Below are positions 17,828 through 35,809 of a stretch of DNA of 36,602 nucleotides, one piece after another. Where the stretch lies: NCBI GenBank assembly GCA_028287505.1, contig JAQBPN010000091.1, positions 1-36,602 of the forward strand. Direction: 5' to 3'. The DNA is from Fibrobacterota bacterium. Lineage in GTDB: Bacteria; Fibrobacterota; Fibrobacteria; UBA11236. The notes below the pieces were generated by a model. That model saw only the letters and a list, made by a program, of their open reading frames with translations. It had not been told where the DNA came from and did no database searches. The position numbers and the translations under genes are program-made. Every line of letters starts with the position of its first letter. Within the stretch, counting starts at the first letter, position 1.

Positions 17828-18550
17828 TCATCCTAGGGAGAAGGATTTGCCCAGGTATATCCGCCTGGCTTCTTCGTCTTGCGCCAAATGTTCCGCCGTT
17901 CCTTCCACCAGTACCTTGCCTTCGAACATAATATAGGCCCGATTGGTGGTAGCCAGGGTTTCGCGTACGCTGTGATCCGTAATCAGGATTCCCATGCCCT
18001 TGTCCCTGAGGTTAAATATAACCGATTGGATGTCCTCCACGGCGATGGGATCGATTCCCGCGAAGGGCTCGTCCAGCAGCAGGAATCTGGGATTGGTGGT
18101 CAGGGCGCGGGCGATTTCCAGGCGCCGGCGCTCGCCGCCGCTCAAGGTGTTGGCCTTGTTTTTCCGCAGGTGCGAGATTTTGAACTCCTCCATCAGGCGG
18201 TCCGTCTCCCTGCGGCACTCGGCGCGGGACAGCTTGCGGGTTTGCAGGATCGCGAGGATATTCTGCTCCACGGAAAGCTTGCGGAACACGGAGGTTTCCT
18301 GGGCCAGGTAGCCAAGCCCCAGGCGCGCGCGCTTGTACATGGGCATGGAGGAAACGTCCGCGTCGCCCATATGGATGCTGCCGGAATTGGCGCGGATCAT
18401 CCCGACGATCATGTAGAAAGAGGTGGTCTTGCCCGCGCCGTTGGGGCCGAGCAGACCCACCACTTCGCCTTGGTTCACGTGGAAGCTGACGCCGTCCACC
18501 ACCCTGCGGCCGTTGTAGACCTTGACCAGGGACTCCGCCTTGATCTGCAC
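17828..18550 (-). CDS. lptB: LPS export ABC transporter ATPase
   Basis: ATPase of the LptB2FG complex that pulls lipopolysaccharide out of the inner membrane. The 240-residue protein has Walker A GPNGAGKT (35-42), the Q-loop Gln84 in [17 protein letters not shown] (typical of LptB), signature LSGGE (136-140), Walker [13 protein letters not shown] and switch His193. It starts with GTG (18548-18550), whose first base is also the last base of the lptA-like stop codon. GGAGGG lies about 8 bp upstream. This tight overlap implies translational coupling. Partner permeases LptF and LptG are not in the window. Confidence 0.96.
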
Positions 18551-20013
18551 TATTTTACCCTCCAGGGAATGTTTGGCCGCATGGGACCGGAACGCGGCTT
18601 GGCCGGAACAGGCTTACCCGCGGGGGGAACGGCTTTTACGTCCGGCTTGGGCGCGGTCTTGAGGCTGTCCGCGGCCGGCGATTTCACGGCAAGGCTGTCC
18701 GGGCCTTTGCCCGCGCCGGCTTTGTTCGGCTTCTCGCCGAAATAGGTTCCCTTGGCCATGCCTTTCACCATCACTTCATCGACCTTGCCGTTCTTGAAGG
18801 CGAAATCGATGGTGTCTCCTTGCGCATCGTTCTTTCCCTTGAGCAGTTTTTTCTCGAAATGGTAGTACGTGCTCTTGGCGCCTCCCAGCACGTTGGCGCT
18901 GGCCACCTGTTTGCCGTTGAAGCGGAGCACCATATAGTCGCCGCTCATCTTGTTGACGAAATCCGGCTTATCCACGTCGAAGTAGGCGCCGTTCGCGTTC
19001 TTGAATACCTGCACGCTGTCGATCGCCTTCTGTTTGAATGCCAGGAACAGCGAATCCCCGTGCACGTCGGATTGGCGCGCCACGGAAGTATCCGTGGCCG
19101 GTTCCACGGAATGGGCCTGGGCCGAACCTTTGACCAGGAGACTCTTGATTTCCTCGCCGTGCATGCCCATTCGCATGATTTCGCCTTTGACCTGGTTGTC
19201 GTCCACTACTACCTGCGGTTCGCCGAGAAGATACAAGGAGTCGGTGGGATCATGGTATTCGGCCTTCTTGCAGGTGATGTTGAGCTTGTCCCGGTGGATG
19301 CGCACATTGCCGTCCGCGATCGCCACCTGGGACGAATCGTCGTAGGTCATGATATCGCCCTTGATGGACAGGGTATCCGGGCCATTGGACCCGGAAGTAT
19401 CGGCTTTCACGGGAGCTTTGGCGGGAGCCTTTGCGATGGCCTTGGGATCCTTCGGCTTGGGCGCCGCGGCCGAATCCTTGGCGGACGGGGATGCCGCGGA
19501 ATCTTTGGCGGTATAGAACCGGCGCACCTCCGGATTGCCCGTAAGCGTGGCCAAATGGCGGAAGCGCAGATATACGATGCTCTGCCCCGTAGCGGTCACA
19601 TCGCCGCTGCTGTCGCGCATGAAGACGTTGCCCTGGGCCGTGGCCTGGCCCAGATTCTTGTCATAGGTTCCGCGATCGGCGGTGAGCACGGATCCGCCGC
19701 GGGTGATGCGCATGCTGGATTCGCAAAAGATGATATTGCGATCCTTCTGCCACACGGCCCGTTCCGTCTCCACGTGCAAATCCCCGTGGCGGAAGCGGAC
19801 CTTGCCGCTCAGGACATACTCGCCGCGGCTGCGGTAGCCTTCGAATTTGTCCGCGTTCTCCATGATCAACGGAGCATTGCGCTCCTGCGCGGGCGGCAGG
19901 GTCGCGATCGCATGGACCGGAACCACCGTCAGACTCCAAACCGACAAACTGATAAAAGCGAGGAACGTAGAGTTTGCCCCGCAAACTCTGTAGCTGAATG
20001 GGAATAGGTTCAC
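18550..20013 (-). CDS. lptA: OstA/LptA-like periplasmic protein with repeat-derived leader
   Basis: Probable periplasmic bridge protein of LPS export. The 487 residues are far longer than E. coli LptA (185). OstA-type beta repeats start at about 50 ([20 protein letters not shown], then [13 protein letters not shown]) and resume after a Lys/Ala/Pro/Asp-rich insert (about 165-215). The C-terminus (about 440-487) is again Ala/Pro/Lys-rich. The GTG start (20011-20013) overlaps the lptC stop as GTGA, with no Shine-Dalgarno, so translation is probably coupled. Residues 1-35 look like a signal peptide ending VHA. Residues about 7-19 of it are encoded by a copy of the hairpin repeat seen at 35589-35799. 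It could also be an OstA_2-type relative rather than a true LptA orthologue. Confidence 0.82.
19958..19998 (+). repeat. Hairpin repeat copy D, inside the lptA-like gene
   Basis: GCGAGGAACG leads into AGAGTTTGC (19969-19977), loop CCC, GCAAACTCT (19981-19989), then GTAG. It aligns with copies B and C at 35689-35799, including the bases before the stem (ATAAAAGCGAGG here, ATAAACGCGAGG in copy B). Similarity fades after about 19994. It is read in antisense by the lptA-like gene, which stays open through it. Confidence 0.8.
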
Positions 20014-20744
20014 GGGGCCGACCCGCGACCGTGTTTGCCGGTGTCGGCGGCGGGATGCTTGGCGCTGTCGATGGACGCGGCGGCGGACTTGGGGCCCGGG
20101 GCATGGGCGGAATCCGCCGGCTTGGCCCCACCCGCAGCGGGAACCGCGGCGGGTATGGCGCCCGGAGACGCAGCCGGTTTGGCGCCGGTGGAATCCTTGT
20201 CCGCTTCATGGATGCGTTGCTCCACTTTCTGGAACACGCCCTTGACGTCCGAGAGGATTTGCCAGTTGTCCAGCTTCGCGTCCGACAGGAATCCCTTTCC
20301 CGTGAGCACGTCCCCTTCTTCGGAAATCACGCGCACGCGCGCTTCCGTGCTGATCTGGTTGATGGCCTTGTTCCAGCGCAGAGAGTCCGAAGTGATGTCC
20401 ACGCCTTTCTCGGAATGCCCGTGCACGTGACCGGAGGCCACCAGAAAGCTGATCCCCTCGTCCACGGTGCCGGAATCGGCCGTGACCCGGAACAGGGTCT
20501 TGCCCAAGGTATCGTAAACAATCAGGTCGACGGGCCGGGCCCGGACCAGGTCCGTCCTGGGCCACTTGACCAGGTACTGGGTCTTCAAGACCCAGCTTTT
20601 ATGGGAACCTTCGTACATATCCAGAATAGTGGTGTCCCGGTATTCCGCGAGGGGCAACTCACGCCTGGGGCCTTTGGCCTCGGGCACGTCGCCGACTTTG
20701 CTGCACGCAGACAACAGGAGCAAAATAAATGCCACCCAATACAT
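20010..20744 (-). CDS. lptC: LptC-like lipoprotein
   Basis: Probable inner-membrane-associated component that receives LPS from LptB2FG and hands it to LptA. The 244-residue protein starts MYWVAFILLLLSACSK with a lipobox ending at Cys14, so it is predicted to be a lipoprotein, as in LptC-like proteins of several non-proteobacterial phyla. An LptC/OstA-like beta region covers about 35-175 (including VTADSGTVDEG, then ITSDSLRWN). The C-terminal 65 residues are an Ala/Pro/Lys/Asp-rich tail ending in GKHGRGSAP. Its stop overlaps the lptA-like start (GTGA). It is the first gene of the minus-strand cluster; the promoter should lie in the 239-bp divergent gap before the MATE gene, where I see no clear box. 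Confidence 0.83.
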   Translation of the reverse strand: MYWVAFILLLLSACSKVGDVPEAKGPRRELPLAEYRDTTILDMYEGSHKSWVLKTQYLVKWPRTDLVRARPVDLIVYDTLGKTLFRVTADSGTVDEGISFLVASGHVHGHSEKGVDITSDSLRWNKAINQISTEARVRVISEEGDVLTGKGFLSDAKLDNWQILSDVKGVFQKVEQRIHEADKDSTGAKPAASPGAIPAAVPAAGGAKPADSAHAPGPKSAAASIDSAKHPAADTGKHGRGSAP

Positions 20745-35569: not shown

Positions 35570-35588
35570 CAACCCGTTCAGATTGTAC

Positions 35589-35640
35589 GCTAGGAAGCGT
35601 GGAGTTCGCGTAACCAACTCCATAACGACCAGCCGCCCAA
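35589..35640 (+). repeat. Hairpin repeat copy A (degenerate)
   Basis: TAGGAAGCG, then stem TGGAGTT (35600-35606) with AACTCCA (35616-35622), a 9-nt loop, and ATAACGACCAGCC. It matches copies B and C in order and spacing but has a shorter stem. It is the first of three copies in the 329-bp gap between 35480 and the epimerase gene. Confidence 0.7.
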
Positions 35641-35688
35641 CACCCCAACCTGGCGAACCGCGAAGCGGGAGCCGGCGGGCTTATAAAC

Positions 35689-35739
35689 GCGAGGAGCGTG
35701 GAGTTTGCTTCGGCAAACTCCATAGGGACGAGCCACTGA
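35689..35739 (+). repeat. Hairpin repeat copy B
   Basis: GCGAGGAGCG, then a 10-bp stem TGGAGTTTGC (35699-35708) with GCAAACTCCA (35713-35722), then TAGGGACGAGCCACTGA. The loop is TTCG closed by C-G, the extra-stable cUUCGg tetraloop if transcribed from the plus strand. It is the most regular of the four copies. Confidence 0.88.
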
Positions 35740-35749
35740 CATCTAAAAG

Positions 35750-35799
35750 GTGAGGAGCGGGCAGTTTGCGTAGCAAACTGTATAGCGACGAACCACTAA
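35750..35799 (+). repeat. Hairpin repeat copy C
   Basis: GTGAGGAGCG, stem CAGTTTGC (35762-35769) with GCAAACTG (35773-35780), loop GTA, then TATAGCGACGAACCACTAA. The first stem pair is C-G where copy B has G-C, a compensating change. Its end abuts the AAGGAG ribosome site of the epimerase gene. Confidence 0.87.
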
Positions 35800-35809
35800 A
35801 GGAGAAAGC

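Follow-up and report, generated by a model that had tools for sequence, protein, structure and literature searches.

We find that a copy of a short hairpin repeat, of a family whose members mostly lie directly behind stop codons, has in one member of the Fibrobacterota very probably become coding through the overlap between lptC and lptA, and now appears to form part of the export signal of an LptA-like protein. The locus lies in the stretch of 36,602 nucleotides analyzed here (hereafter the window), which is a contig of a 6.07-Mb draft genome in 130 contigs.

The lptC-lptA junction and its repeat copy

On the reverse strand the window contains, in order of transcription, an lptC-like gene (20010-20744; Pfam LptC, 9e-9), an lptA-like gene of 487 codons with a GTG start (18550-20013; Pfam LptD_N, 9e-12 and OstA_2, 4e-10), and a gene for an ABC-transporter ATPase (17828-18550; Pfam ABC_tran, 2e-36) that we assign as lptB by position. 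The LptA/OstA domain together with the lptC-lptA-lptB order identifies the product of the central gene as LptA. As the first-pass annotation had stated, the GTG of lptA overlaps the TGA stop of lptC (20012-20010), the two being joined as GTGA at 20013-20010. Orthologs of lptA were recovered from all nine other genomes of the family, where the lptC-lptA order is kept and lptA starts at or beside the lptC stop in every case, mostly in the form NTGA; the exceptions at this junction are G007, with TGATG, and G004, with TTGATTATG. Between the preceding in-frame stop and the GTG at 20013 there are no alternative in-frame starts, and the nearest alternative, an in-frame TTG directly behind the repeat (19945-19947, minus strand), would leave a stub of only 13 residues ahead of the likely cleavage site, with no basic residue among them. 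Given the position of the start in the relatives, the lack of any other upstream start and the nature of this stub, the sequence strongly favors the GTG at 20013 over the TTG, and the GTG is presumably the codon used in the cell.

The repeat copy occupies 19949-19995 on the minus strand, in the family's sense orientation relative to lptC and lptA; the plus strand of this segment reads CTGATAAAAGCGAGGAACGTAGAGTTTGCCCCGCAAACTCTGTAGCT. A covariance model (R1) built from 24 other copies, with the lptA copy excluded, recovered it with 42 bits at 19949-20003 (E = 3.4e-9 in the window and 5.6e-7 genome-wide). At its center is a stem-loop of 9 base pairs, AGAGUUUGC-GGG-GCAAACUCU (19969-19989, minus strand), which is an exact palindrome with a folding energy of -10.9 kcal/mol on its own. 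Comparison with the consensus indicates that the copy is 5'-truncated: it lacks the 5' outer arm and retains the inner stem alone, because of which the 18 nucleotides between the lptA start and the repeat (19996-20013) show no detectable similarity to the family. These may derive from either the ancestral gene or the element. The TGA of lptC lies at -10 from the copy. An earlier delineation of the element at 19958-20013, covering residues 7-19 of LptA, was thus right that a repeat is present and that it overlaps the signal peptide, but the recognizable part is 19949-19995 and the encoded span slightly larger, about residues 7-22. It was also right that the repeat is read without a break of frame, lptA being open for 487 codons.

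Structure and distribution of the repeat family

A 20-base pattern of the family, allowing up to 3 mismatches, gave 36 matches in the genome as against 1 for the reversed control. Searches with the covariance model (E<=0.01) recovered at least about 71 copies in this genome and from at least 6 to at least 59 in each of five congeners, these counts being lower bounds, as scoring was confined to 150 of the first-look candidates in each genome, which numbered up to about 1,700; among the candidates scored in a sister genus and in another family of the order there were none. Three further copies lie within one intergenic space of the window (35580-35643, 35680-35743 and 35741-35803, plus strand; covariance model). 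The family is a short palindromic stem-loop present in tens of copies that are mostly intergenic and beside gene 3' ends, and on this sequence evidence we classify it as a genus-specific, REP-like hairpin. An Rfam scan of the window matched no family, and a general repeat search did not list this one at the settings used because the copies are short and diverged.

The sense consensus, GGCTCSTCGCTnn-GGAGTTTGC-nnn-GCAAACTCC-AC-GCTCSTCGC-TTTTAT, describes an element of about 45-60 nucleotides. Its inner stem is 98% paired, with compensatory changes, and its outer arms have the appearance of direct repeats, yet also pair in antiparallel fashion, flanking pyrimidine mismatches that are conserved. 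In 60 of 67 copies the central base of the arms is paired (as GC, CG, AT or TA), a level that none of 10,000 shuffles equaled. Together, the inner stem and the pairing outer arms indicate that members of the family, whether as RNA or as single-stranded DNA, can form a single long hairpin with imperfect pairing. The pyrimidine mismatches are strongly conserved outside a set of variants (L107, L109, L104, L113 and others), in which they are replaced by pairs with both sides changed. Integron attC sites were considered as a counterpart and tentatively set aside, the outer arms of this family being direct repeats.

To place the copies relative to genes we considered the best-scoring ones, among which 41 had an upstream sense gene supported by a codon model. 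In 37 of these the repeat begins 1-15 nucleotides past the stop of that gene, with peaks at -2 and -4; the scan for stops began 30 nucleotides upstream of each copy and was thus biased toward close stops, though the peak is much narrower than this limit. The remaining copies of the family lie beside gene starts or are unassigned. A function at gene 3' ends, as a terminator or at the mRNA end, is possible. Judged by flanking sequence, two to four species have a copy at one and the same gene end in several instances (L061, L132, L146 and L149; L067, L137 and L142; L122, L151 and L155), and this occupation of the same ends in several species suggests that these copies are long resident rather than very recently mobile. 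The Y1/RAYT transposase domain (PF01797) was not found in this genome or in four of the five congeners; in the fifth, G001, Y1 (RAYT/IS200-like) transposases are present (L095, L096), none of which adjoins a copy. We therefore rejected such a transposase as the mobilizer. Hence, the mobility earlier ascribed to the hairpin, and with it the way the repeat spread, is something we can only infer, there being no Y1/RAYT gene here and many copies at shared orthologous gene ends. Nor does the location in lptA call for the special capture that had been proposed: the family sits behind stops, and here the stop is that of lptC.

Three other copies, all in the orientation opposite to that of the lptA copy, are also read in frame and lie in conserved proteins. 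The N-terminus of MnmE in this genome, MMQRDERGVYASKLQSEEPNYG, is read from a repeat copy (L072:174-1565; G000:C70:43739-45130, minus strand); since there is no start codon between the copy and the conserved N-terminal block, the copy must encode the first ~20 residues of this protein. In the congeners a TTG or ATG is found directly behind the copy at mnmE. A second copy (L112:2006-2066; G000:C5:24775-24835) forms part of the interdomain linker of a sugar-transferase/polysaccharide-deacetylase fusion, the linkers of the congeners' glycosyltransferase-deacetylase proteins being different and mostly shorter, and a third, in a congener, lies in the variable linker of FlhF (L157:1506-1567; G003:C39). 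An apparent case in G002 and G004, of a gene with its C-terminus running into the repeat, was rejected, the gene being mnmE on the other strand.

Contribution of the repeat to the predicted LptA signal peptide

By inspection and hydropathy we predict for LptA a signal peptide of 35 residues (19909-20013, minus strand), of which the repeat encodes residues about 7-22. These include R9, the sole basic residue ahead of the hydrophobic core, whose AGA codon comes from an AGAG/CTCT variant of the stem that is common to other copies, and the first part of the core itself, TFLAFI. Each of the nine relatives has at least one basic residue before the hydrophobic core of its LptA; with the repeat-encoded residues taken away, 19 residues of the N-terminus would be left here, none of them basic. 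The predicted segment presumably works as a signal peptide in LptA export. Of 83 real copies, 60-62 are free of stops in any one of the three sense frames, so that an in-frame, stop-free landing would be expected by chance about 1 time in 4; with selection against a broken lptA in addition, nothing further is needed to explain why the frame was kept.

Searches of the lptC-lptA junction in the nine relatives, including ones with filters off, gave no match to the repeat, so that among the ten genomes of the family only this one has a copy at that site. The conserved block of LptA is preceded by 46 residues in the window and by about 30-34 in most relatives. The comparison of orthologs proposed in the first-pass annotation thus bears out its expectation in that the relatives lack the repeat and most have a shorter N-terminus, but not in the case of G004, in which the N-terminus is also long (48 residues) without any repeat; length alone is hence no proof of insertion. 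Taken together, this pattern points to the repeat having been gained in this genome rather than lost from the relatives.

We accordingly consider how such a state might have come about. A 5'-truncated copy would have arisen just behind the lptC stop, the family's usual place, and because lptC and lptA overlap as GTGA, this site would at the same time be codon 7 onwards of lptA. With the frame kept, translation of the repeat would yield about residues 7-22 of the export signal. It might at first have been tolerated at a permissive site, as a signal peptide needs only charge and hydrophobicity, and the likely later course is a dependence on R9 and the core residues, with no new function.

Alternative explanations

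The codons of the repeat would have no part in the protein if it were only a 5' leader, LptA starting at the TTG at 19947 and the GTG being a relic kept by the stop of lptC. The TTG does lie directly behind the repeat, a TTG in the same position seems to be the start of mnmE in two congeners, and Di Nocera 2013 (PMC3733652) warned that many N-terminal REPs are extragenic, with translation starting downstream. Yet the 13-residue stub has no basic residue and falls short of the length of a normal signal peptide, the relatives begin lptA at the lptC stop, and the frame across the repeat is open, for which reasons we regard this explanation as unlikely. That the similarity arose by chance or through an assembly join appears very remote: the missing 5' outer arm and the draft state of the genome would allow it, but the genome-wide E-value of about 6e-7, the lptC-lptA order kept in relatives and the intact frame of 487 codons speak against it.

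The repeat might instead be kept for translational control, its arm and loop pairing with the lptA start and being opened by ribosomes finishing lptC. A candidate alternative helix of 11 base pairs joins GCCCCGUGAAC (20018-20008), which includes the start codon, to GUUUGCGGGGC (19986-19976) in the repeat (19976-20018 overall, minus strand). This pairing covers the lptA start and has the lowest energy when short windows are folded, no window tried left the start codon unpaired, and the energy of the start-region duplex was reached by none of 1000 shuffles of the repeat and by 2 of 86 copies, the lptA copy included. This form is nevertheless sensitive to the length of sequence folded: with a longer window, pairing of the repeat with itself prevails and the alternative helix falls to 0.19. 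Folding of the 91-nucleotide context against shuffles gave z = -0.71, a stability that is not unusual; copies with a GGGG loop elsewhere score nearly as well, so that the signal may be one of composition; and no second genome carries the pairing. We hold it improbable that the repeat is kept for this role, and put forward control by a start-codon helix as a testable idea only. Both roles might also be combined, the repeat providing the charge and core of the export signal and a lock on the start codon opened by ribosomes leaving lptC. This we consider more doubtful still; if true, it would be a repeat-born device uniting a protein part and a translation switch. Our preferred reading remains that a stop-linked copy became coding through the gene overlap.

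Relation to known repeats and significance

Rickettsia provides established cases of palindromic elements read in frame, the RPEs (Ogata 2000, 2002, as cited in PMC10969869 and PMC2229807). As described there, RPEs are, like the present family, dispersed palindromes, several of which lie in frame within conserved housekeeping proteins, some of them N-terminal; the in-frame copies in lptA, mnmE, the glycosyltransferase-deacetylase linker and the FlhF linker show the same behavior. They differ in length, RPEs being about 150 bp as against about 45-60 nucleotides for our family, which moreover lies mainly behind stops. A precedent involving a signal peptide is the Yersinia YPAL/RU-2 MITE, which in YPO1552 makes up part of an exported protein's predicted signal peptide (Delihas 2007, as cited in PMC2229807). 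That account, however, concerns a 168-bp MITE that contributed to the formation of a putative new gene, whereas the lptA copy lies in an existing, conserved gene of envelope biogenesis.

Di Nocera 2013 (PMC3733652) also lists N-terminal and intragenic REPs. The GTAG and CGTC REPs described there resemble our family as short stem-loops in tens of copies, occurring in groups and at gene 3' ends, with some intragenic; the CGTC REPs, as with this family, have no known transposase. Unlike either type, the outer arms of our family combine a direct-repeat sequence with mutual pairing in which pyrimidine mismatches are conserved. We rejected its assignment as a GTAG REP mobilized by RAYT, the consensus having no terminal GTAG tag and the Y1 association being absent, and as a CGTC REP (terminal CGTC, stem beginning with AT pairs, CCA tail) on structure: its CGTC is confined to the interior of the outer arm, and its stem starts with GGAG or AGAG, without initial AT pairs.

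A literature search on Fibrobacter with REP returned nothing relevant, and no report of this hairpin family was found. The family is thus new, while the kind of repeat capture is one already described, of which lptA is a real but small example; the in-frame copies in mnmE and the two linkers, together with the RPE and MITE precedents, take away the rarity claimed for it earlier. What the placement of the repeat offers is an explanation of the capture: a family that lies behind stops turns coding wherever genes overlap. It adds a new phylum to such cases. Because conserved proteins contain several of its copies in frame, and congeners have sites without a copy, how well repeat codons are tolerated in signal peptides, at N-termini and in linkers becomes directly comparable; the family also brings hairpins that combine conserved pyrimidine mismatches with strong covariation.
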